Position numbers and translations under genes: made by a program | Notes under the pieces: generated by a model | Told to the model about the DNA's origin: nothing | The model's input: only the letters and a program-made list of their open reading frames with translations | Databases searched by the model: none | In this document: in pieces, positions 47,295 to 62,544 of the stretch | How positions within the stretch are numbered: position 1 is the first letter of the stretch | Layout of the letters: each line of letters starts with the position of its first letter | Assembly (NCBI GenBank): GCA_949300325.1 | Contig: CASGDQ010000024.1 | Coordinates: 62,001 to 126,000 of the forward strand | Direction of reading: 5' to 3' | DNA from: an uncultured Spirochaetales bacterium | GTDB taxonomy: Bacteria; Spirochaetota; Spirochaetia; Sphaerochaetales; Sphaerochaetaceae | DNA: 64,000 bases

Positions 47295-47525
47295 CTACCG
47301 CCTCCGCAGCCTGACAGAATAGGTGCCGCGAAACAGGCGCGATGGGATCATGTCATATTCAATTCCATCCATTTCGACAACCCTTTCTGAAATGAAAGAA
47401 TAATCGAGCCCATTTTTTGTGCAGTAGGCAGAAACGATCTTCTTCATCTTGTCCGTTCCAGGCGGGGATGAAAGAACCTCCTCCGTATCAAGCAATATAG
47501 TCTTATTAAAAATATTGAAAATCAT
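47295..47525 (-). CDS. Small hypothetical protein after pyrC (76 aa)
   Basis: A 76-residue protein, MIFNIFNKTILLDTEEVL at the start and a basic end SVRLRRR. The ATG overlaps the pyrC stop as ATGA, which supports translation by coupling; no separate ribosome site is visible. No family is recognised. It ends one base from the convergent HTH gene. Confidence 0.5.
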   Translation of the reverse strand: MIFNIFNKTILLDTEEVLSSPPGTDKMKKIVSAYCTKNGLDYSFISERVVEMDGIEYDMIPSRLFRGTYSVRLRRR

Positions 47526-48559
47526 GACCACAAGAAAGGATGGAACGGATACTCATTATCCACAAGATGGAATCTGTGCTCAATGTCCTTTGGAAGAAAC
47601 ACTGGCTCATCATCCAAGCTGAATATTTTGAGTACATTGCCACCAAAGAGAGCTTTCAGCCTGTCATCGGCAACTTTCGCATCCTTCAGCCTCTTTAATA
47701 GAAGCAGGCTTCCAGCAAACCCGGGAATGCCGCTTGCCCCGCTCTGCTTGTCAGCTATTGTATGAGGGGCATGGTCGCTCTCGACATAATCTATTTTCCC
47801 ATCCATGAGGCTGGAGAATATGAAAGCCCTGTCTTCTTCCGTCCTGAGCGGCGGATTCATCTTGAGATATCTTTCCCTATCCTTTGCATCCTGCAAAGAA
47901 AGAAGCGCATGATGGGCTGTCGCCCCCGAGGAGATCCTCATCCCCTCCTCCTTTGCTTTTTCCACTAGCTGCACGGCAGCCTTGGTTGATATATGGCATA
48001 CATGAAGATGCCCTTTGAATCCCGTCTGCTTTGCAATCCGGATTATCTGCTCGACTGCAAAGGCCTCCCCTTCTGCGGGACGCGCAAAGGAATGCGTGGA
48101 ATAATCTGAAGGATCGTAAAGAGAAGGCTTATTAAGCGCTTCACACTCCGCGTGGAGCGCAAGCACTCCGCTGTAGCAGCAATCAGAAAGGACCTGCATA
48201 ACCTTTCTCTGCTCATCTTCCGTAACAAGCCCCATATTCCCGGTGCTGTGGGCAAGAAACATTTTCAGCCCGATTGCAAGGGGAAACAGCTCCCCATGAA
48301 GGCGGCACATCTGCTCGACCTGGCTGCAATCGGAGGTAAGTCCAAGAAAGACATGATAGGCAACGCCGTATTTTTTGACAGAAGGCGATGCGAGAGCCAA
48401 TCGGGATATGACAGCATCCCTATCGGTAAGGCACATGCTGGTATTAGGCATATCAAACACACGGGTTATGCCGGCAAGATGTGCGGCATACAGCCCGTGT
48501 GCTACAGTTTCTTTATCCTTCTGCGCCCAATCACGCAGATGCACATGAGGATCTATCAC
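47522..48559 (-). CDS. pyrC: Dihydroorotase
   Basis: A 345-residue zinc amidohydrolase closing carbamoyl-aspartate to dihydroorotate. The N-terminus IDPHVHLRD holds the first zinc ligands; DMPNTSMCLTD, the carboxylated-Lys region GLKMFLAHSTG, LALHAECEAL, LHVCHISTK and the catalytic Asp in YVESDHAPHT follow. It is a short type without the N-terminal strand domain. The GTG start follows directly on the pyrDK stop with GGAG 6-7 bases upstream. Confidence 0.94.
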   Translation of the reverse strand: MIDPHVHLRDWAQKDKETVAHGLYAAHLAGITRVFDMPNTSMCLTDRDAVISRLALASPSVKKYGVAYHVFLGLTSDCSQVEQMCRLHGELFPLAIGLKMFLAHSTGNMGLVTEDEQRKVMQVLSDCCYSGVLALHAECEALNKPSLYDPSDYSTHSFARPAEGEAFAVEQIIRIAKQTGFKGHLHVCHISTKAAVQLVEKAKEEGMRISSGATAHHALLSLQDAKDRERYLKMNPPLRTEEDRAFIFSSLMDGKIDYVESDHAPHTIADKQSGASGIPGFAGSLLLLKRLKDAKVADDRLKALFGGNVLKIFSLDDEPVFLPKDIEHRFHLVDNEYPFHPFLWS

Positions 48560-50239
48560 TTACAACTCCACACGGTTATCGAGGATATAGCGCCACGTAA
48601 CGAAGGTGCCCTCTTTGCAGGAAAGATGATTTCCACATACACATTCCCCGCATAGTCCCACCCCGCACATAGTCATCTTCTCAAGCGAAATATAGATCCT
48701 GTCAGCCGGAAGCCCGAATGACATGAACATCTCAGCCGCTTTCCTCATCATTACGGAAGGTCCTACCACATAGGCTGCGGCATCGCCTTCCACATCAGAG
48801 GCGCTGTAGCTTTCAAGAACCCTTCCAGGCTTCCCATCATCTGCTACAATGCGGTAGGCTCCATATTTTTCCAAATCCTTTTGCATAAGCCCATTTCCAT
48901 CATCAGGCAGTTTGGGCAGACCTAGACGTATATCAAGAAGAGTGTCCTCAGCATGAAGCTTTTCTGCAAGAAGATTCAAAACAACCACGCCGGTTCCCCC
49001 TCCCAAAAGAAGGGCTTTTTTTGTATGGATGTTCTCAACACCTTTGCCGCATAGGCCGCGGGTGTAGATGATATCCCCCTCTTCAAGCCCTGCAGCAGCT
49101 TCAGTGAACGGCCCCCTGATTTTTATTATGAAAGTCAAAGGATCATTCTTTGCGACGCTGAAAGGCCTTTCTCCGACATTTGGAATCCAAAGGAAACTGA
49201 ACTCTCCAGCCTTGCATGAGCTCTTTCCATCAAGGGTGAGGATCACAGTATCCTCATCATACATCTTCTTTGAGAGCACAATATGGCGCTCATACTCCAG
49301 ATTGTCATGACGCAAGCTGAGAAGGTCCTCGACACTCCCGCCGTTTTTTATCCTAGAAAAATACAAGGCCCAGTCTTTCGGCTCGACACGTGAAAGCGCA
49401 GAACCGATACCGACGCTGTCGGCGCCGGCCTCCAAAAGAGATCTGGCATCAGAGCTCGAGACGACCCCGCCCATTCCGAGTATGATGGGCTCATCGCCTA
49501 TCCTCTCACGGATGCTCCTTACAGCATCGAGCGCGATATCGAAAACCCATGCGCCGCTCGCACCGCCTTTTCCTCCAAGCTTATTGAATAGAATCGGATG
49601 CCCATCCTTAAAATACTCTCTGGGCCCGACCGTGTTGATCGCGGCAATGCCGTCAGCCCCGCTTTCAATTGCAGCCTCCGCTATTTCGGCAATATCTGGA
49701 ACATTCGGGGTAAGCTTGATGATCAAAAGCGCCTTGCGCTCAGGATAAGCTTCACAGATCGCTTTAACAAAAGCCCTTACTGTTTCTTTGTCGCTGCCGA
49801 TTGAGGCGCCATATCCTTTTGCAGCATGAGGACAGGAGAAATTAAGCTCCAAAAGATCTGCAACAGGATCGAATTTCTTTACAAGGGTTATGAAACCCTC
49901 TTCATCATTTGCAGAAAGGGATACGTTCAAAAGGGCCCGCATACCCTCTTTGCGAAGCTCTTCAAGCTCAGGATAAGCCTTATCCATCCCTGGATTGCGC
50001 AAGCCTACGGAGTTACCGAAATCACCAAGAGACGGGCTGGTGATTACAGGAGGCGTGTTGCCGGGATTCGCCTTGACCTGGAAGCTTTTCGTGGTAATGA
50101 TGTCCACAGCCTCGATATCCCTGTCAAAGAGCCTCACAAGCTCTATCTTGGTGCTTGCCACACCGGAAACGGTGGACAATACCATCCTTTTTCTCAGATG
50201 GTTGTGATATAAAAGCTCATATGCCCTTCCTGATTTCAA
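48560..50239 (-). CDS. Dihydroorotate dehydrogenase fused to its electron-transfer subunit (PyrD-PyrK)
   Basis: A 559-residue fusion of the class 1B dihydroorotate dehydrogenase catalytic subunit and its FAD/[2Fe-2S] partner. Residues 1-320 form the TIM barrel with NSVGLRNPGMD, LNFSCPHAAKG, KLTPNVPDIAEIA and GMGGVVSSSDARSLLEAGADSVGIGSAL. Residues 330-559 are PyrK-like, with RPFSVAKNDP (FAD), LLLGGGTGVVVLNLLAE (nucleotide) and C-terminal cysteines CGVGLCGECVCGNHLSC for the cluster. The two are normally separate genes. The TTG start at 50239 is supported by GGAGG 7 bases upstream and overlaps the pyrF stop as TTGA. Confidence 0.92.
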   Translation of the reverse strand: MKSGRAYELLYHNHLRKRMVLSTVSGVASTKIELVRLFDRDIEAVDIITTKSFQVKANPGNTPPVITSPSLGDFGNSVGLRNPGMDKAYPELEELRKEGMRALLNVSLSANDEEGFITLVKKFDPVADLLELNFSCPHAAKGYGASIGSDKETVRAFVKAICEAYPERKALLIIKLTPNVPDIAEIAEAAIESGADGIAAINTVGPREYFKDGHPILFNKLGGKGGASGAWVFDIALDAVRSIRERIGDEPIILGMGGVVSSSDARSLLEAGADSVGIGSALSRVEPKDWALYFSRIKNGGSVEDLLSLRHDNLEYERHIVLSKKMYDEDTVILTLDGKSSCKAGEFSFLWIPNVGERPFSVAKNDPLTFIIKIRGPFTEAAAGLEEGDIIYTRGLCGKGVENIHTKKALLLGGGTGVVVLNLLAEKLHAEDTLLDIRLGLPKLPDDGNGLMQKDLEKYGAYRIVADDGKPGRVLESYSASDVEGDAAAYVVGPSVMMRKAAEMFMSFGLPADRIYISLEKMTMCGVGLCGECVCGNHLSCKEGTFVTWRYILDNRVEL

Positions 50240-51117
50240 ATCCCAGCCTCCGAAATAAGTTTTTCAAGCCCGAAGAGGCAGGAAGATGTCCAGTCCTTTG
50301 GGGCTGGAGCTTTTTTCCATGGATGAGTAAGCCCGCTAGAGGAATTGATCCTGGCAATAGACACATCATAAGAAGCCCTTCTGAGCGCTGCCATGACTTC
50401 CTCTGCGCTTCCACCCTGGCTTCCGACACCTGGAATCAGCATCGCAATGTTTTTTCCAGCAAAATACCCAGCAATATCTTCAAGCTCCTTCATGTTTGTG
50501 GCCCCTACCACAGCTCCATAGCCGGGCTTGCCCTCGGACCACCGGACAATCGTATGGGCAACTGCCATATAAAGGGGATAAGTCTCCTTTTCGTCGACAC
50601 TGTCAAGCATCAGGCGGTTCTGCAGATCCGCCCCGCCCGGATTGCTGGTCCTATCCAAGACATATATTCCCTTTTCGGGAAAGGAAAAAGGACTCACGCT
50701 ATCCGTTCCCATATATGGAGAAACCGTCACAGAATCCGCATTCCAGCAAGAAAACGCCTCATTGGCATAATTAAGGCTGGATTTTGCTATATCCCCTCTT
50801 TTGCTGTCGAGAATCACAGGAATTCCGGGGAAAAAGGATTCAAGCATGTCCAAAACATGCGCCAGGGCCAGGCTGCCATCAAAACGCCCTTGCCGGGGCC
50901 GGTCAAGAATGCTGTAATAGCCGATATTCGGTTTGAATGCCGCAGGACAGAGGCCCGCCTTCTTCATCGCCTCAAAAAGATTTTCCATATACTTGCGGAT
51001 CCTTGAAAGCCCATCAAGCTCCTCATATGGAAGTACGGATAATACCGGATCAAGCCCCATGCATACGATGTTCTTCACCTTATTTGCACTTGTTGCAAGT
51101 TTGGTATTGTAATCCAT
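50236..51117 (-). CDS. pyrF: Orotidine-5'-phosphate decarboxylase, type 2
   Basis: A 293-residue enzyme making UMP from OMP. It belongs to the longer type-2 family (about 270-300 residues). It has CMGLDPVL, AAFKPNIGYYSIL, the catalytic charge network VILDSKRGDIAKSS, the flexible loop region with TVSPYMGTDSVSPF, and LIPGVGSQGG. GGAGG lies 7 bases before the ATG. It follows pyrE by 2 bases. Confidence 0.94.
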   Translation of the reverse strand: MDYNTKLATSANKVKNIVCMGLDPVLSVLPYEELDGLSRIRKYMENLFEAMKKAGLCPAAFKPNIGYYSILDRPRQGRFDGSLALAHVLDMLESFFPGIPVILDSKRGDIAKSSLNYANEAFSCWNADSVTVSPYMGTDSVSPFSFPEKGIYVLDRTSNPGGADLQNRLMLDSVDEKETYPLYMAVAHTIVRWSEGKPGYGAVVGATNMKELEDIAGYFAGKNIAMLIPGVGSQGGSAEEVMAALRRASYDVSIARINSSSGLTHPWKKAPAPKDWTSSCLFGLEKLISEAGI

Positions 51118-51119
51118 GA

Positions 51120-51815
51120 TCAGCCCTCCTTAGGAAATCCGTGATTTTCTCCCCAGCTAAACGGATCATTCCTCCACTCCTGAAGGGTCTCCGCCTCTTC
51201 TAGGCTGATATATCCGATTTCAGCAGCAATCCTTATCATCAAATCGTATGAGAGAATGGTATGGTAGCAGCAGCTGGGCTGAAGGGAAGCAAATGCATCC
51301 TCACTTGCTTTAAGACCATAAGTAAAAATTCCAAGACATGTATCCACCACCCCTCCGGTGGCTCTTATAGCCTCGACAGCCTTTATGGAAGAAGAACCTG
51401 TGCTGATGAGATCCTCGATCAAAAGCACACGTGCACCTTCATAGCTGCCGCTTCTTCCAAGTCCCTCTACCTGATGTCCTAATCCATGATCTTTAGATCC
51501 TCCACGCACATAGGAAAGCGGTTTATTAAGCCTGTCTGCAAGGCTGGTGGCATGAGGAATGCCGGCAGTGGCGGTCCCTGCGATATTATCGAACTGAAGA
51601 TTGAGAGATTCAATCATATCGGAAAAAGCATCACAGATCAGGGCTCTGTACTTTGCAGAAGCCAGAAACTGCCTGTTGTCGTTATAAATCGGCATCCTGT
51701 ATCCGCTTGCCCATTTAAAAGGATCCTTAGGGCTGAGGCGGATTGCTCCCAAATCCAAAGCAGCCTTTGCAAGCTGCGTTCCATAGTAAGTCGTAATTTC
51801 GTTGAGTGTCTTCAT
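51120..51815 (-). CDS. pyrE: Orotate phosphoribosyltransferase
   Basis: A 231-residue enzyme joining orotate to PRPP. The type I phosphoribosyltransferase motif is VLLIEDLISTGSSSIKAVEAI. YRMPIYNDNRQFLA and AGIPHATSLADRLNKPLSYVR are typical of PyrE. The ATG at 51815 has GGAG 6 bases ahead and is preferred to an ATG at 51827. Confidence 0.94.
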   Translation of the reverse strand: MKTLNEITTYYGTQLAKAALDLGAIRLSPKDPFKWASGYRMPIYNDNRQFLASAKYRALICDAFSDMIESLNLQFDNIAGTATAGIPHATSLADRLNKPLSYVRGGSKDHGLGHQVEGLGRSGSYEGARVLLIEDLISTGSSSIKAVEAIRATGGVVDTCLGIFTYGLKASEDAFASLQPSCCYHTILSYDLMIRIAAEIGYISLEEAETLQEWRNDPFSWGENHGFPKEG

Positions 51816-51839
51816 ATTGTGCTCCATTATAACAGAATA

Positions 51840-53435
51840 TCAGCTTCTTTTGTTCCAAATTTCCTTGAAAGAATGCACTTTGCCGCAATAGGCGCAACGA
51901 TATTTGTCATCCTGTGTCCTGAAGAATACCGCAGGAACTCCTTCTCCGTTGCATGGATTGGATATGCAGGCTTCGTTTTTGCAGGACAGGTCGGAGAAAT
52001 TATAGATCCGAGGAGGCATATGGGTGCGGAATTTGCTCTCAACTTTGGAATTCTTTATGATATTAAGCGTACAATGCGGAGCGACAGCGGCAAGCCTTTT
52101 GAGGTCCTTGCGGCTAAGCTCGTAATTTCCTGGACGGAAGATTATCCCCTTGTACTGGCCATCGCTTCCGCGGCTGACCCATTCTCCGCCTTTGCTCTCA
52201 TCGAGATTGAGAACGGAAGAAATGAGCCTCATGTGGCTCCTTATCTCGCTCGGGCTGTCCCCCTTGCAGATATGATCGATCACAATGCCGTTCTCAAGAG
52301 GACGGACACCTTCGGAATAATTCTTCTTGCTCTTTGCCTCATTATCGCTGAGGTCAACCGAAATTATGTATTCCTCGCTTCTGTAATCCTTTGCATCCTC
52401 CTCGCATCCCTCGTAATCGGAACCGACTTTGCCGGCGATAAGACCAAGAAGGACCATGCGCACATACATGCCGTTTATTGCCTGGCGCTCCCATCCGTTG
52501 AGCTCTGTCTTATCGAGGAATGTAGGAATGGTCGGATGCTCCTTATGGCGGGGAAGCGGATGATAGAACTTTGTTCCGCTCTGAAGATAGGGAAGGAACT
52601 GTTCTTTAAATGTTATGGCATCCCTGAGCATATCCTGTTTCTGCAATATCCTCTCGCCCATCCTCTCCAGCTGAGGCCGCGTGAAATACCACATCTTCGC
52701 AGTGTCATTGGAGGCAAGATAGTCGGCTATCGATGAGAAGATCCTGACCTCAAATCCATTTTCCCTCATGATCTCTATATAGTTTTCAGGCATCATGAGC
52801 TCCTCTGGAGCTATAAGATCAACCTTCACCTTATCAAAAACCTTGAGCCCGTCAGCCTTTGAATGAACTGTGCGCCCATGATAAAGATCTCCCACGAGAG
52901 CCAGATGGATGTGGGAAAAATCCATGTTCTGGTCTTCTAGGAATGTGAATTCATCGAGAAGCTCCTGGGTTGGATGCTCATGCTTGCCATCCCCTGCGTT
53001 TATGAACGCCGGCTTATATGGAAGGCCGTTGCGCACAGCATATTCCCCGCATTCCTCGCTGAGCCATTTCGTAAGCCCCTCGACCTTGCTGCGTACGATG
53101 AAAATCCTGTTCGAATATCCGCTGAGCATGTTGAACGTATCAGCAAAGCTCTCCCCCTTGTTGATGCTGGAGGAGGAGCAGAGGAGCTCGGATACTTTTG
53201 CATGGTGGAATTTTGCCGCATTCCTGAAAGACTCCTTGGTTCTTGTGCTGTCCTCGAGAAAAACCTCATACATGCCGAAATCCGGATCATCGATCCTGAA
53301 CTTGGCCATCGTCTGCTCATCCCCGGATACCACAGCGTTTTTTAATTCCATAACCTTCTTGAAAAGGTAACGCCTTTCATTGATAGAAAAGTCTTCGATT
53401 ACATTAAGGCTCCTGCCCTTGAACACGTTTGCCAT
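51840..53435 (-). CDS. pyrBI: Aspartate carbamoyltransferase fused to its regulatory chain (PyrB-PyrI)
   Basis: A 531-residue fusion. Residues 1-350 are the catalytic chain with the carbamoyl-phosphate loop FLEDSTRTKESF, the HPTQ motif in GKHEHPTQELLDEF and HPLPRHKE. The C-terminal 160 residues are PyrI-like: GIVIDHICKGDSP (nucleotide-binding domain), then a zinc domain with four Cys (CKNEACISNPC ... CAYC). Such fusions are known in Thermotoga and treponemes and imply allosteric control by nucleotides. The ATG at 53435 follows GGAGG. A leader ORF and terminator lie directly upstream. Confidence 0.94.
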   Translation of the reverse strand: MANVFKGRSLNVIEDFSINERRYLFKKVMELKNAVVSGDEQTMAKFRIDDPDFGMYEVFLEDSTRTKESFRNAAKFHHAKVSELLCSSSSINKGESFADTFNMLSGYSNRIFIVRSKVEGLTKWLSEECGEYAVRNGLPYKPAFINAGDGKHEHPTQELLDEFTFLEDQNMDFSHIHLALVGDLYHGRTVHSKADGLKVFDKVKVDLIAPEELMMPENYIEIMRENGFEVRIFSSIADYLASNDTAKMWYFTRPQLERMGERILQKQDMLRDAITFKEQFLPYLQSGTKFYHPLPRHKEHPTIPTFLDKTELNGWERQAINGMYVRMVLLGLIAGKVGSDYEGCEEDAKDYRSEEYIISVDLSDNEAKSKKNYSEGVRPLENGIVIDHICKGDSPSEIRSHMRLISSVLNLDESKGGEWVSRGSDGQYKGIIFRPGNYELSRKDLKRLAAVAPHCTLNIIKNSKVESKFRTHMPPRIYNFSDLSCKNEACISNPCNGEGVPAVFFRTQDDKYRCAYCGKVHSFKEIWNKRS

Positions 53436-53445
53436 TGCAGCCTCC

Positions 53446-53475
53446 AAAAAAAAGCGGCCTGAAAAACAGACCGCT
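53446..53475 (-). terminator. Attenuator hairpin ahead of pyrBI
   Basis: On the minus strand AGCGGTCTG (53475-53467) pairs with CAGGCCGCT (53461-53453) over nine positions with one G-U, followed by eight T and then the GGAGG of pyrBI. The stem starts 5 bases after the leader-peptide stop. A ribosome at that stop would cover the stem and allow read-through. Confidence 0.85.
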
Positions 53476-53480
53476 GAAAA

Positions 53481-53558
53481 TCAAACAATAAGATGAAAAG
53501 GAAACACCATGCGGGCAACCAATAGAGAAAAACTGTTATCCGCTTTCCATTTGTCCAT
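53481..53558 (-). CDS. pyrBI leader peptide (25 aa)
   Basis: A 25-codon ORF starts MDKWKADN and ends MVFPFHLIV just before the attenuator. GAGG lies 6 bases before the ATG. Its last 10 codons are T-rich (GTGTTTCCTTTT and on to GTTTGA), giving U tracts where polymerase would pause when UTP is scarce. This matches pyrL of enterobacteria in layout though not in sequence. Expression is inferred from layout. Confidence 0.7.
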   Translation of the reverse strand: MDKWKADNSFSLLVARMVFPFHLIV

Positions 53559-53579
53559 GATGATCCTCACTAGCGAAAG

Positions 53580-53608
53580 AGAATAACAGGAAGATAAATC
53601 TTTGTCTA
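53580..53608 (-). promoter_or_regulatory. Promoter of the pyrimidine operon
   Basis: TAGACA (53608-53603), a 17-base spacer and TATTCT (53585-53580). Transcription would start near 53573, about 15 bases before the leader ATG. The -35 overlaps the stop codon of the Wzc-like gene. Confidence 0.6.
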
Positions 53609-56047
53609 CTCTTTTTTGCCGCGGGCCGCCTCATCATTTTCTATTTCCGCGAGAAAAGCATCAAAATCGGAAGGTTTGGCAGTCTTCACAGTTTTATTAT
53701 CAGCCTTTTTCTCTTGATGCTTTTCATGATCGATCCCATCAGGATAGGCAAGAGGAGCATCCGGCCACAAGCTGGCATCCTTTTCCTGCAGGCGGGATTT
53801 CAGCTGCTTTTTATAAATAGACGAATATTTGCTTGCTTTCCTGAGGTAAGTCTTTCTGATGATCTTGTTCTCCTTATCTCCCAGATTATAGCCGCCATAA
53901 CCGTACTTGTAGCCGTATCCCGTCTTCATGCCGAAGCTGGTGGCATCCAAAGCAAGCCCATTAAGACATGCGCCTATGATATTTGCGCTGCCGCCTCTGA
54001 GCTCTTCTATAAGGAGCTCCACCTCAGGAATATTGCTTATGCCGGCCCTGGCCACGATCAATACCTCAGGAGCTACGCAGGCTATCGTGAGAAGCTCGGA
54101 GGCGAAAGAAAGAGGAGGTGCATCAAAGAAGATATAATCATAATGGTTGCTGACCTTTTCCAAGAACTGTTTAAGGGGCTGGACCTGGATGACAATGGAA
54201 GGAACCACGACGCTGGATCCTGTGCCAAGGATATGAAGGGAAGGAAGATTATCATACGGCACTCTTATGGTCTCCGATATATCGACATCCCCATTAAGAA
54301 CATCGACAAGTCCTTTTGGAGAATGCTTTACCTCAAAAACATTCTCCACATTCGGCTTTCTCAAATCCATATCGACCACAAGCACTTTCTTGCCGTTCAA
54401 TGCAAGAGCGTATGCGATATTCGCAACTGTGGTGGTCTTTCCATCGGTCTTTCCAGGAGAGCATACAGTAATATACCTGCTCTCCAGCTTCTTGCCATAT
54501 ATTATCGACGAGGCGACATGCTTATAGCGTTCGCTCATGAAGCTCATCGGATTGCGGTAAAGCGCAAGGCCTACCCTTCCATCTTTTCCCGCTTTGTTCT
54601 TTCTGACTTCCAAAGGAATCCAGCCAAGTATTGGAATGTTATCGCCAATAGCTTTTGCAAGGTCTTCCCTATCTTTTATCCTCTTATCTGTAAGACCGAG
54701 CACAACTGCAATGCCAACTCCTGCAAATATGCCCAAGAATCCAGCAATCAAAAGAGTTTTGGCTTTCTTCGGGGATACCGGATCCTCAGGAACCAGCGCA
54801 CTATCGATGCTTGTAACATTGTCTATGATGGAAGCTCTGAGCAAAGCGGTCTCGCTCTCCATCTCCCTCAGTTTCAGAAGCAGCTGCTGATTAATTTCCA
54901 CATCCCCCTGCAGCTCAAGAAGACGCCTTTGTATATCGGGCATCTTCATCAGCTCCTCGTCAAGAAGGATCTCCTCATTATCAAGCACTGCAACGCTCAC
55001 CTCTGCGACAGTCTTCTGAACATACGCAGAAGCAAAGCTTCTTGCAGCAACAGAAGACATATAAGGCAAAGCAAGATCCTCAACGATGCGTTCCATCGCG
55101 GTCTTCGCCGTGTCCTGCATCTGGGAAACGCTGTAATACCGTGCCTGCTGACCTACTGAGAGCACCTGGTTCTGCCTGTTGTTGGAAGCGGCGATCACGT
55201 CAAATGAAAGGAGCTCGACATAATAGTTGCTTATATTCTGCTTCAGCCCTGCAATCTCGCTATTTTCTGAAATGGCCTGATAAAGCGCTTGATCGGCATT
55301 GATCGAAGAAAGGATCTTGTCAGCCTCCTCAATCTCATATTCAAGAGGAGTTCTTATCAGGCTGTAATAGCTGAGCTTCATCAGCAATACTTCATTTTGT
55401 TCTGTAAGGCGCATAACCCCGTTGTCTTTTTGGAAATCTGACAGCGACTGGGTGGATTCGGCTAACAGCTGCTCAACCATTGGAATCTGGGAAGTCACGA
55501 AATCAAGCTGGTTCTGAGCGCTGTTTCTTGCAAGCCCTGTAAGCAGCTCAGAATAGGCAAGAGCTATGGCATTGCAGAAATCGCTTGCAAAATAAGGATT
55601 CTGGTTCCTCACCGTTATCTTAACAAAGGAAGTGTTGTCGACCGTATCAAAGGATACGATTTCCTGAAGGGCTTCATAATCCAAAGGATTCTCAAAATCC
55701 GAATATCTTATCCCCTCTGAATTTACATACTGCGTAAGATCCAGCTTGCTCAACGCATTGTCAAACGTGGTGCGGGAACTGAGAAGCTCTATTTCAGTAT
55801 TTATAGAATTGCTGCTGCCGAGGCTGAGGGAAAGCATGCTGCTCAAGCTGCTGCTCTTTGATATAGGCTGAACCATCATGCTTGCACTGGTTTCATAAAT
55901 AGGAACAGCATTCAAAAGATAAAATACTGCAAATGCAACCGTAATGAAGAAGGCAAGAATCACTATCCAGATACGGCTCAATACGCTTTCAATCAATTCG
56001 GAGATGCTGATTTCCACCTCTTCGTTTTCTTTTCTCGTCTCACTCAT
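53606..56047 (-). CDS. Polysaccharide co-polymerase / BY-type tyrosine kinase (Wzc-like)
   Basis: An 813-residue inner-membrane protein for exopolysaccharide assembly. It has an N-terminal Wzz domain with the first helix IWIVILAFFITVAFAVFYLL, a long periplasmic coiled-coil region, the second helix near LLIAGFLGIFAGVGIAVVLG, then a cytoplasmic BY-kinase: Walker A SPGKTDGKTTTVAN, Walker A' VLVVDMDLRKPN and Walker B YIFFDAPP. A Tyr-rich cluster (YGYKYGYGGYNLG) follows, but about 85 charged residues come after it, unlike Wzc where the cluster is terminal. The ATG at 56047 has GAGG. Confidence 0.92.
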   Translation of the reverse strand: MSETRKENEEVEISISELIESVLSRIWIVILAFFITVAFAVFYLLNAVPIYETSASMMVQPISKSSSLSSMLSLSLGSSNSINTEIELLSSRTTFDNALSKLDLTQYVNSEGIRYSDFENPLDYEALQEIVSFDTVDNTSFVKITVRNQNPYFASDFCNAIALAYSELLTGLARNSAQNQLDFVTSQIPMVEQLLAESTQSLSDFQKDNGVMRLTEQNEVLLMKLSYYSLIRTPLEYEIEEADKILSSINADQALYQAISENSEIAGLKQNISNYYVELLSFDVIAASNNRQNQVLSVGQQARYYSVSQMQDTAKTAMERIVEDLALPYMSSVAARSFASAYVQKTVAEVSVAVLDNEEILLDEELMKMPDIQRRLLELQGDVEINQQLLLKLREMESETALLRASIIDNVTSIDSALVPEDPVSPKKAKTLLIAGFLGIFAGVGIAVVLGLTDKRIKDREDLAKAIGDNIPILGWIPLEVRKNKAGKDGRVGLALYRNPMSFMSERYKHVASSIIYGKKLESRYITVCSPGKTDGKTTTVANIAYALALNGKKVLVVDMDLRKPNVENVFEVKHSPKGLVDVLNGDVDISETIRVPYDNLPSLHILGTGSSVVVPSIVIQVQPLKQFLEKVSNHYDYIFFDAPPLSFASELLTIACVAPEVLIVARAGISNIPEVELLIEELRGGSANIIGACLNGLALDATSFGMKTGYGYKYGYGGYNLGDKENKIIRKTYLRKASKYSSIYKKQLKSRLQEKDASLWPDAPLAYPDGIDHEKHQEKKADNKTVKTAKPSDFDAFLAEIENDEAARGKKE

Positions 56048-56056
56048 ATCCACCTC

Positions 56057-58824: not shown

Positions 58825-59596
58825 AGGTTATCCTCCTGAGGCTTTCAAACGAACGCTTGTTCGCTGCTGAAACATCATAAATCCCGTCTTGGACCTCAAG
58901 CTGGACCAGACCGCCAGCTTCACTCAGGATTTGCAGTCCTGCAGCAATATCATAAAGATGGAGAAATCTTTCATAATATGCGCTTGCTCTGCCGGATGCT
59001 ACATAACAAAGGCTCATGGCTGCGCTTCCTATGCTCCTCATATCAGAAAAGACCTCATAAAGGCGTCTCATGCGAAGCCAGAAATCATCCAGATATTCAT
59101 GCCTTCGATGCGGCGGAACCATCAAAATGAGTCCCTTGGAGCTTTCAATATCGCTTACATATATCCTTTTTCCATTCAAATATGCACCCTGCCCAGCAAT
59201 GGCATAAAAGCATTCTCCTCTTGCCGGAGCGGTGACGAAAGAAAAGGCATCATTACCATTTTCCCTGTAGCATAGAGAGATGCAGTAATCAGGATAACCA
59301 TTCATGAAATCAACCGTCCCATCAATAGGATCGATGATCCATAAGCCGCCAGATCCCGCCATCTCCCCTTCCTCTTCCGTAAAGAATCCATCAGATGGAT
59401 AACGCTTTTTTATAGATTCAATAAGCATATGCTCAACAGCGACATCAGCATCTGTAACATAATCATTGAAGGTCTTTTCCTTCAACCTTACATCATGGAC
59501 CGATAGAAGGTGTGAGCCGGCTTTATCAAGCAGATCCATTGTAAAAAGAAACTTCTCGATTAAATGGGCATCAAGCGGTAAGGAATCCTTTATCAT
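58814..59596 (-). CDS. Inositol-monophosphatase-family phosphatase
   Basis: A 260-residue Li-sensitive-type sugar phosphatase of the IMPase/CysQ/SuhB superfamily. Metal-binding parts are VTDADVAVEHML, FFTEEEGE, WIIDPIDGTVDFMNGYPDY and the C-terminal YDIAAGLQILSEAGG, where Tyr replaces the usual Trp. It may act on inositol phosphate, PAP or fructose-1,6-bisphosphate; the sequence does not decide. The ATG at 59596 overlaps the upstream stop as ATGA. Confidence 0.9.
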   Translation of the reverse strand: MIKDSLPLDAHLIEKFLFTMDLLDKAGSHLLSVHDVRLKEKTFNDYVTDADVAVEHMLIESIKKRYPSDGFFTEEEGEMAGSGGLWIIDPIDGTVDFMNGYPDYCISLCYRENGNDAFSFVTAPARGECFYAIAGQGAYLNGKRIYVSDIESSKGLILMVPPHRRHEYLDDFWLRMRRLYEVFSDMRSIGSAAMSLCYVASGRASAYYERFLHLYDIAAGLQILSEAGGLVQLEVQDGIYDVSAANKRSFESLRRITCGC

Positions 59597-62544
59597 CCCC
59601 TTCCCCTTGCAATAAGCTCTTCTCCGATGACGGATACAATCTTCCAATTGGAGGCGCTGAAATAATTCCTGCTGATGCTTTTCATCTCCGCAGTCTCAAC
59701 AACATAATCCTTGTTTATGTAAAGCACGAGGGCATTCCAAACATTTTTCCCCTTTGAATACATCACCGCTCCTGCATTATTCATCAGCTCCATATCCCTC
59801 AGCTCATCATGCACCTTGCCTTTTGAAAGCAATACGGATAAATCGTATTCGAAGATGCTGAACATCTTATCCTTGCCGTCCTGGCACTGCTTCTCCCACA
59901 TCTGGTGCAGCACGTTATTGAAATAATCAAGGACGCTGCGGTCCTCCTGCTCCAAAAATTTTGCAAAAACTCCAGCCTTATTACCAAGAAGTGAGACTAT
60001 CTGGCGGATCGTTTCCGAATATCTGGGATTCTCCAAATCAATTGTGAGGCCATCCTCATCAAAAGAAACCGAAGCCTTTTCATCCTTGACAGCATCAGCA
60101 TATGGCTGCTCTTCGACCTTCATTCTCCCCCGATTAAGATCAACATCATCCTTTGAGAGAGTAAAAACCTTTTCCCCAGATTCTTCGACATATGACGGAG
60201 CATCTTTATGAGCAAGATCTTCCACCTTTTCTTCAGAGCCTGCATCAGAAACCTCATCCGCCTGCTCTTCTTCCAAAGCATCTTCTTCCAAGGTATCTTC
60301 TTCCAAGGTATCTTCTTCCAAGGTATCTTCTTCCAAGGTATCTTCCTCTAAGGTATCTTCCTCTAAGGTATCTTCCTCTAAAGTATCTTCCTCTAAAGTA
60401 TCTTCTTCCAAAGTATCTTCTTCCGCTATCTCAGGAGAAGAAACATCCTCACCAGGCGCTTCTTCTGCACAAGGCTCAAAAGGAGGAACATCCGTTTTTG
60501 CTGCAGTCCCAGCTTGGGTATTTGGAAAATCGGATGAAGATAAATCATCCTTCATAACGGGTTCAGACATAAAAGAATCTTTCTCTAACGATGAGCAAGC
60601 ATCACCTTCAGCCTCTTTTTCTGCATCCTCATCTGGAATTGCAAATGAGAAATCAGGCTCGATTTTCTCGCTCTGCACATCCTCTTCATCAAGGATATCC
60701 ATGAAATTGAGCTGATCGGGATCCTCATCATCCTCAATGGCAGCCTCTTCTTTTATCTCCTCTTCCTCGGTCTCCACCTCATCATCGACATCAAGGTCCA
60801 TATCCTCATCCTCTTCATCTCCAGAATCCAGATAGTCCTCATCATCGTCATATTCATCATCGTCGACACCGTCATACTGAGTATTGTCAACCGCTTTTCC
60901 CAGTTCTTCCTCTATGATGTCCTGGTTATCCTCATAAGTCTCCAGATACTTGCTCTTCTCATCTTCGGATATCGGACAAGAAGAGGAAACAAGACGAGGA
61001 TCTTCCTCCTCCGGCAAAACCTCCTGCTCTGATTCCTCCTCCGGCATATAATCGGCATCATCAAAATCCTCAAGCTCGCTTTCGGGAAGATCCTGGTCGT
61101 CTTCGAGGCGGACTTCCTCATTTGCAACTTCGTCCGACTCAAAAACATCCGAATAAGGAGATGGCTCCACATCCGTATATTCACCCAATATGGTTGTGAA
61201 GAAATCGCTTCTCGTATCATTGCTCTTCACATTCAGCAATTCGACAACGCTGGTGGAAAATGTATTCTCATCCATTTTCACAAGCCTCTCATCCCCATCC
61301 GGATCGACAAAAATAAGCTTGTGACCAAGCTGCGGACGCACCTTCTCATCTTCCATTCTAGCCAGACGTCTTAAAAACCATTGCTGAGGCAAAGCATATG
61401 CATTGATATCCAGAAGGCTTTCCAATACGGAAATATCGATCTTCTTGCCATCGAAAGAATATACTCCGACCACATCGGTCTCTGTAAAAAGCCAGGACAG
61501 TGCCCGATATGTCGCGGCGGTAATCCTGGAGTGCAGGTTGAGGGTTTCTGATGCCACGCGCTGCGCACAGGATAATATATATTTGCCCACGAAAGAAAAA
61601 TACATGTCCCCAACTTTCAAGAATGGGAAAACAGTGCTTATCCAAAGCCCTTTGGAAAAGAAATAGTTTTCAAAGTTCAGCGATCCGGTCTCCACGGAAA
61701 GCTTATCCAAGGCCTTTGCCGACATATTGGAGCAGAACTCAGGCCTGAAAAGATCGAATCCATCGCGCTGCCCCTCAAGACGGAGCGCCTGCTGATATAT
61801 CGAAGCATCCTTATAGACCTTCATCTTCAGCTGCTCATCATCAAGGCCTGCTCCACCTTCCTCAGCCTTGAGCTTAGCCATGCGCAAAAGCACCTCGCTT
61901 TTGAATGCTGCGCTTTCCTGGCTCAGACGATCGATTCCCTCAAGGCTTTCATATGCGATAGAAGATAATCCGGTTATGAACTCATCGACCTTCATACCGA
62001 AAAAAGAGGATACTATCTCCTCTTCCCCCTCGAAGGAGGTATGGGCCATAAGCTTTTCCTCTTCAAGCTTTTTCTTATCCTTAAATTCCGGGAAAAACTG
62101 ATGATAAAGGGCAATCCTGTAATCCGAGGCGCCTTTTTCATCGGTATTTCCTTTTAAAAACTCAAGTGCGGCACGGCTGTCCAAAAGGCGGCAAAGCTTT
62201 CTGGAAACATCCTGTCCAAGATTGACAAGCCTAAGCCAATCCTTCTCCCTGACATCCCTGTTGGAGCTCCTTCTTTCATACATCGAAGAAGAAAGGATCG
62301 ATTGGACAAGCACCGGAAGCAGCCGGTAGGAACGCAAGGTCTCTTCATTTTTCTGGATCCGTGTGATACGGCGCTCCTCCCATACGCACATCTTCACCAA
62401 TTCCAATGGATGATAGGAAGAAAGGATTTCCGCGATATTCTTGAAATCCAGGCGGAGGTAATTCTCCGCTTCCGTGACATTGCGCTCAGCCTTCTCCTTT
62501 GAGATGCTCAAGAGCGGTAGAAAATCATTTGAAAGGTTGTCCAC
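59593..62544 (-). CDS. Large acidic protein with 15-bp tandem repeats (983 aa)
   Basis: I do not recognise this protein. Residues 1-450 are mixed and helical, starting [20 protein letters not shown], with no transmembrane segment. A long, very acidic, probably disordered stretch follows (about 455-830), containing nine EEDTL pentapeptides and one EEDAL. The last 150 residues are ordered again, with [20 protein letters not shown] and [20 protein letters not shown]. The GTG start has AGGAG 7 bases upstream. It may be cytoplasmic and adaptor-like; PilZ-like or scaffolding roles cannot be judged. It overlaps the IMPase gene by 4 bases. Confidence 0.75.
60271..60420. repeat. 15-bp tandem repeat (10 units) within the acidic gene
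   Basis: Ten perfectly in-frame 15-base units of the form TTCCAAGGTATCTTC run from 60271 to 60420, encoding [10 protein letters not shown] on the minus strand. Units fall in blocks (TTCCAAGG, CTCTAAGG, CTCTAAAG, TTCCAAAG), as expected of recent expansion by slippage or unequal exchange. The copy number is likely to vary among strains. Confidence 0.95.

Follow-up and report, generated by a model that had tools for sequence, protein, structure and literature searches.

A probable ribosome-coupled pyrBI attenuator in Sphaerochaetaceae, with a predicted helix that may gate the leader ribosome-binding site

The fused pyrBI gene of an uncultured spirochaete is preceded by what is probably (roughly 80%, judged from comparative sequence analysis) a ribosome-coupled transcription attenuator that would sense UTP, the presumed signal, through the speed of RNA polymerase. 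Leaders of this design were compared in 69 distinct versions from spirochaetes of gut and sediment, and control of de novo pyrimidine synthesis through nucleotide sensing by transcription-translation coupling would be conserved throughout the family. This would imply that transcription and translation are tightly coupled in spirochaetes. The many divergent leaders amount to a natural mutagenesis experiment, which exposed a predicted helix, designated P1, between the leader ribosome-binding site (RBS) and the segment ahead of the terminator. Attenuators of this kind are already known from enterobacterial pyrBI, and the spirochaete leaders may represent a further case, with P1 as a general feature. 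No published account of pyr attenuation in spirochaetes was found in our literature searches, and a survey of premature terminators mentions neither pyrB nor spirochaetes (PMC2965389).

The attenuator locus and its gene cluster

All parts of the putative attenuator lie upstream of pyrBI on the minus strand of the window (the whole 64,000-nt stretch analysed). In order, they comprise an extended -10 promoter (53580-53608; TAGACA and TATTCT separated by 17 nt, with TG before the -10 element, TG.TATTCT), a leader Shine-Dalgarno (SD) sequence GAGG (53565-53568), a leader ORF of 25 codons plus TGA (53481-53558, ATG at 53558, TGA at 53481) encoding MDKWKADNSFSLLVARMVFPFHLIV, a 5-nt spacer (TTTTC), an intrinsic terminator hairpin of 9 bp (53453-53475; AGCGGTCTG-TTTTT-CAGGCCGCT) with a T-run to 53446 (eight T, i.e., the last hairpin base and seven more), and GGAGG followed by the pyrBI ATG at 53435. 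The original prediction had named each of these elements, and all of them are present. The fold of the whole leader as a single sequence proved ordinary (z -0.58) and uninformative; the evidence given below is comparative.

A U-rich tract ahead of the terminator, which is a feature of pyrBI-type attenuators, is also present (53476-53500, partly within the ORF) and is a putative UTP-dependent pause region. The 25 nt before the hairpin contain 64% U at this site and 43-53% in the 69 thinned leaders described below, compared to an average of 32% before the other terminator-like sites found in a 347-kb scan of the same genome. The promoter motif is likewise recurrent among the 69 distinct leaders (TRGACA / TG.TATYCT, approximately 22 nt from the -10 element to the AUG), with a score of 10.2 versus 6.8 for shuffled sequences.

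The gene behind the attenuator is a fused pyrB-pyrI (51840-53435; aspartate carbamoyltransferase catalytic and regulatory parts, NF009916 with 827 bits against a cut-off of 800, Pfam OTCace and PyrI domains). It is followed on the same strand by pyrE (51120-51827, TIGR00336 above cut-off), pyrF (50236-51117, TIGR02127 above cut-off), a pyrD-pyrK fusion (48560-50239; dihydroorotate dehydrogenase and electron-transfer subunit, NF005574 and NF000796 on separate halves, both below cut-off), and a dihydroorotase-like pyrC (47522-48559, NF002668 / TIGR00857, below cut-off). Because neighbours in this pyrBI-pyrE-pyrF-pyrDK-pyrC cluster are at most 12 nt apart or overlap, the attenuator could control five genes of the pathway. 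Elsewhere in the window (59593-62544, minus strand), a 983-aa protein carries about ten TLEED repeats within a very acidic region.

By the named relatives of its pyrBI gene, the window is assigned to Candidatus Ornithospirochaeta (Sphaerochaetaceae), with Bullifex porci, Sphaerochaeta, and Pleomorphochaeta as near relatives. The gene is present in 119 of the 139 genomes of the order, and the upstream regions of nearly all of them were examined. One genome (G093) has two pyrBI copies on different contigs (L125 and L126), each with a leader of its own.

Conservation of the leader reading frame

In each relative, the hairpin before pyrBI was located and, of the ATG and GTG codons 45-100 nt upstream, the one preceded by the best SD sequence was chosen, with stop codons ignored. 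Leaders whose SD sequence scored -4 or better formed a set of 97, which was reduced to 69 by dropping those more than 75% identical. The chosen frame runs without a stop codon to 10 nt or less from the hairpin in 97 of 97 leaders, whereas frame 1 does so in 40 and frame 2 in 26; in the thinned set the corresponding numbers are 69 of 69, 24, and 22. Relative to the first hairpin base, leader stops fall at -9 to +20 in 53 of the 69 leaders, later in 16, and earlier in none. In the full set every stop is at -8 or later, with a cluster from -8 to +16 plus a read-through tail. The original reading as a pyrBI attenuator gains support from this family-wide layout; its specific arrangement, in which the leader stops just before the hairpin, is true of the window but is only one of several: other relatives have their stop codon within the hairpin or continue past it, as in E. 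coli pyrL. Reporter experiments in E. coli showed that termination is nearly lost when a stop codon lies a few bp ahead of the terminator and is fully regained beyond approximately 27-30 nt (PMC4824070).

The leader peptides are widely divergent across the family. Among 31 sister pairs, substitutions are evenly spread over codon positions 1, 2, and 3 (125/99/110, p 0.22), so that the test for purifying selection on a functional small protein was negative, indicating that translation has been kept but its product has not. Judging from frame openness, it is leader translation that is conserved and not the peptide sequence, the pattern that the check suggested with the original prediction called for in relatives.

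The possibility that the hairpin merely terminates an upstream gene and that the ORF is open by chance has to be weighed at this point, given that a long gene on the same strand (53606-56053) finishes just upstream. It appears scarcely credible: the hairpin is separated from that gene by a conserved promoter, the leader unit is kept where the upstream sequence differs, and the frame test gave 97 of 97 open against 40 and 26. In addition, the layout is rare in the 347 kb of the same genome, where six terminator-like sites just before a gene yielded three leader calls, one of which falls inside an upstream gene.

A second alternative, a leader sensing a protein or small molecule (a PyrR element or a riboswitch) with an incidental ORF, draws on the control of pyr operons by PyrR in other phyla. 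It is considered exceedingly unlikely, since an incidental ORF would not stay open in 97 of 97 leaders. Moreover, an Rfam search of the leader returned nothing over threshold (the best match, L20 leader, has 23 bits, below the cut-off of 58.7) and no PyrR site. PyrR was not found among the phosphoribosyltransferases examined: there are seven phosphoribosyltransferase-like matches in the genome, the two small candidates are of the hypoxanthine/xanthine type, and PyrR models were far below cut-off or silent, although a PyrR could have been missed in a genome that is 86% complete.

Several members of the family depart from the common form. Three loci (L147, L163, and L181) have no recognisable terminator before pyrBI. 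Leaders without an SD sequence occur in four members of genus g45 (L157, L180, L184, and L188) and five genomes labelled as the window's genus, g1 (L034-L037 and L187); a TG.TAGATT-like -10 element lies approximately 8-10 nt before their AUG, and these ORFs look leaderless from their sequence, so P1 cannot act there in the same way. They (MRSKSNKVTVSYDLWI, MTQRHRRDIDFFR, and others) still finish at or within the hairpin. In the five g1-labelled genomes, pyrBI is only 64-66% identical to that of the window and the leader and hairpin resemble those of genus g45; the unit may have been transferred as a whole, or the genomes may be misplaced.

A leader ORF of a different character was observed before a CorA-type Mg2+ transporter gene (PF01544, 44550-45569, minus strand), where a short SD-led ORF (MDDGSYPLPASLIVFSVRR, then stop) lies at 45665-45606 on the same strand. 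Such an ORF is found at 42 of 42 corA loci in Sphaerochaetaceae, with an acidic and mostly proline-containing start (MDDGSYPLP, MDEGGSINPLPR, MSTLDDGGSITPLPR, MSDDSGSPLPK, ..DDANPHPDS), and some of these leaders have a 3' part complementary to the SD region of corA. The corA leader peptide is conserved, in contrast to that of pyrBI. By analogy it resembles MgtL of enterobacteria, a Mg2+-sensing leader that destabilises the ribosome.

Helix P1 and its co-variation

A further comparative signal comes from the pairing between the SD/AUG region of the leader and the 48 nt immediately ahead of the hairpin, which was controlled with permuted partners, shuffled 3' segments, and sliding windows on both arms. 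Each leader's own partner gives -17.1 kcal/mol, compared to -14.1 kcal/mol for partners permuted among species and -13.7 for shuffled 3' segments as a composition control. Own pairing was unmatched in 5000 permutations over all 69 leaders, and likewise within g1 and within g26; in genus g40 alone, 4 of 5000 permutations were as good. With 16-nt windows, the signal is limited to about -36 to -8 before the hairpin (z -12.0 at -32 to -16) on the 3' side and to about -14 to +8 around the AUG on the 5' side; elsewhere z is near 0. Compensating changes include AAGGG/CCCUU (L011), AAGGAU/AUCCUU (L017), UAAGGU/ACCUUA (L018), and GGGAGUGC with GCACUCCC (L178). On this co-variation, the leader SD/AUG region co-evolves with the stretch 32-12 nt ahead of the hairpin, at the U-rich tract, with which it is predicted to form helix P1, described here as new. 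In the window, pairing computation and the family-wide co-variation place its 5' arm (SD and AUG) at 53555-53569 and its 3' arm (the anti-RBS segment) at 53497-53512.

The position of P1 also bears on an amino-acid-sensing attenuator of the trp/his type, in which stalling at the codons of one amino acid picks between competing hairpins. The leader shares with such systems a peptide and a terminator, and helix P1 lies upstream of the latter. However, the leader RBS does not co-vary with windows that overlap the hairpin, and P1 is thus not a competing structure. Furthermore, no conserved or repeated codon exists in the leaders, whose composition is mixed (Ser 10.9, Leu 9.4, Ile 9.3, Arg 8.0, and Phe 6.8%), and known amino-acid leaders keep their stop codon over 20 bp away from the terminator (PMC4824070), whereas here stops abut or overlap the hairpin. 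This type of attenuator is very improbable.

The state of the leader RBS during transcription was predicted by folding only the RNA outside a 12-nt polymerase footprint, with shuffled controls for comparison. The SD/AUG region is predicted to be more open than in shuffled sequences until the polymerase is 12 nt before the hairpin (t about +4) and less open from about 8 to 4 nt before the hairpin on (t -4 to -6). The position of this flip coincides with the U-rich tract. The predicted folding suggests that UTP-dependent pausing keeps the leader RBS open, and the most likely role of P1 is that of a gate on this site.

Proposed mechanism

When UTP is plentiful, the polymerase would cross the U-rich tract fast, the terminator hairpin would form, and transcription would stop before pyrBI. 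When UTP is scarce, the polymerase would slow in the tract, and the leader RBS would be open while the polymerase still encloses the 3' arm of P1; a ribosome could then load on the leader ORF, trail the polymerase closely and, at or near the stop codon, cover the 5' arm of the hairpin, so that the polymerase reads into pyrBI-E-F-DK-C. As the polymerase moves on, P1 would close the leader RBS, which would sharpen the switch and stop late ribosomes.

Alternatively, within the same attenuator, P1 could be a pause hairpin that keeps the polymerase waiting within the U-rich tract and is melted by a ribosome, in the style of the trp leader. P1 would be clear of the polymerase with the RNA 3' end approximately 0-8 nt before the hairpin, which is roughly the geometry of a hairpin pause. 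Nevertheless, its 5' arm is centred on the SD and AUG and not anywhere in the ORF, and the pause of E. coli pyrL was not seen to depend on a hairpin or on NusA in one study (PMC9291695), which speaks against such a function. We regard this role as unlikely, and gating of the leader RBS is retained as the preferred reading.

Comparison with known systems

Several known attenuators share parts of this design. In the pyrE (rph-pyrE) attenuator of E. coli, translation stops a few nt before the terminator hairpin and coupling leads to read-through; the end of translation near the hairpin is the likeness, whereas a full gene, rph, lies upstream there instead of a short leader peptide. The pyr attenuators of Bacillota depend on PyrR and a protein-bound anti-antiterminator and have no leader peptide; the pathway and the principle of transcription attenuation are shared, but PyrR was not found here. 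The trp and his attenuators resemble the spirochaete leader in having a leader peptide and a terminator and differ in codon-specific stalling and alternative hairpins.

The closest counterpart is the pyrBI leader of E. coli, whose mechanism is established: with ample UTP, pyrL is transcribed rapidly and transcription ends at the terminator, whereas at low UTP the polymerase pauses and a ribosome can prevent termination (PMC10135430). Both precede the same gene and share an SD-led leader ORF approximately 85 nt before the hairpin, a U-rich tract, and an intrinsic terminator within reach of the leader ribosome. In contrast, E. coli pyrL has 44 codons and runs through the hairpin (+47), whereas the ORF of the window stops 5 nt before it, and the window has a cluster of five genes with pyrB and pyrI fused. 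As had been stated originally, the leader sequences are unrelated.

On a plasmid of Ilyobacter polytropus (Fusobacteriota; L229, 280-450), an annotated 56-aa 'hypothetical protein' with a strong SD sequence precedes pyrB and runs into the terminator hairpin before this gene, which is the same layout; its RBS sequence GGTAGAAAA has a perfect complement, TTTTCTACC, within the ORF. Together with a helix at the same position in E. coli, this ORF and hairpin make common ancestry or transfer with the enterobacterial leader possible, and an independent origin is unproven; with unrelated sequences and a shared P1 position, the enterobacterial and spirochaete leaders are compatible with both descent and convergence.

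Five gammaproteobacterial leaders (E. coli, Klebsiella, Proteus, Photobacterium, and Aeromonas), taken from a plasmid collection and E. coli K-12, were analysed with the same script, the start of the Aeromonas leader being set by hand. All five have the same leader anatomy and an SD:anti-SD helix at about -38 to -14 (-13.0 to -20.4 kcal/mol; in E. coli -33 to -16, -19.5 kcal/mol). Of 120 permutations, identity included, 2 were at least as good as their own pairing, and flanking windows showed no such effect. In E. coli, the 3' arm of the predicted helix lies within UGCCGUUUUUCUUCCCGU, a sequence that contains the U-rich stretch. For these few leaders, two of them from close relatives, the sequences are suggestive of a P1-like helix, which, as far as the part of the pyr attenuation literature covered here goes, may have been overlooked in E. 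coli, the most-studied example. We therefore put forward tentatively, at somewhat below even odds, that pyrBI attenuators generally, E. coli included, have an unrecognised helix in which the anti-Shine-Dalgarno strand of the leader RBS is provided by the U-rich pause tract or by the 5' edge of that tract: a polymerase paused by UTP starvation would hide this strand and leave the RBS open, and a moving polymerase would free it and shut the RBS. If this is true, UTP is read by gating leader initiation and not only by the distance between ribosome and polymerase.
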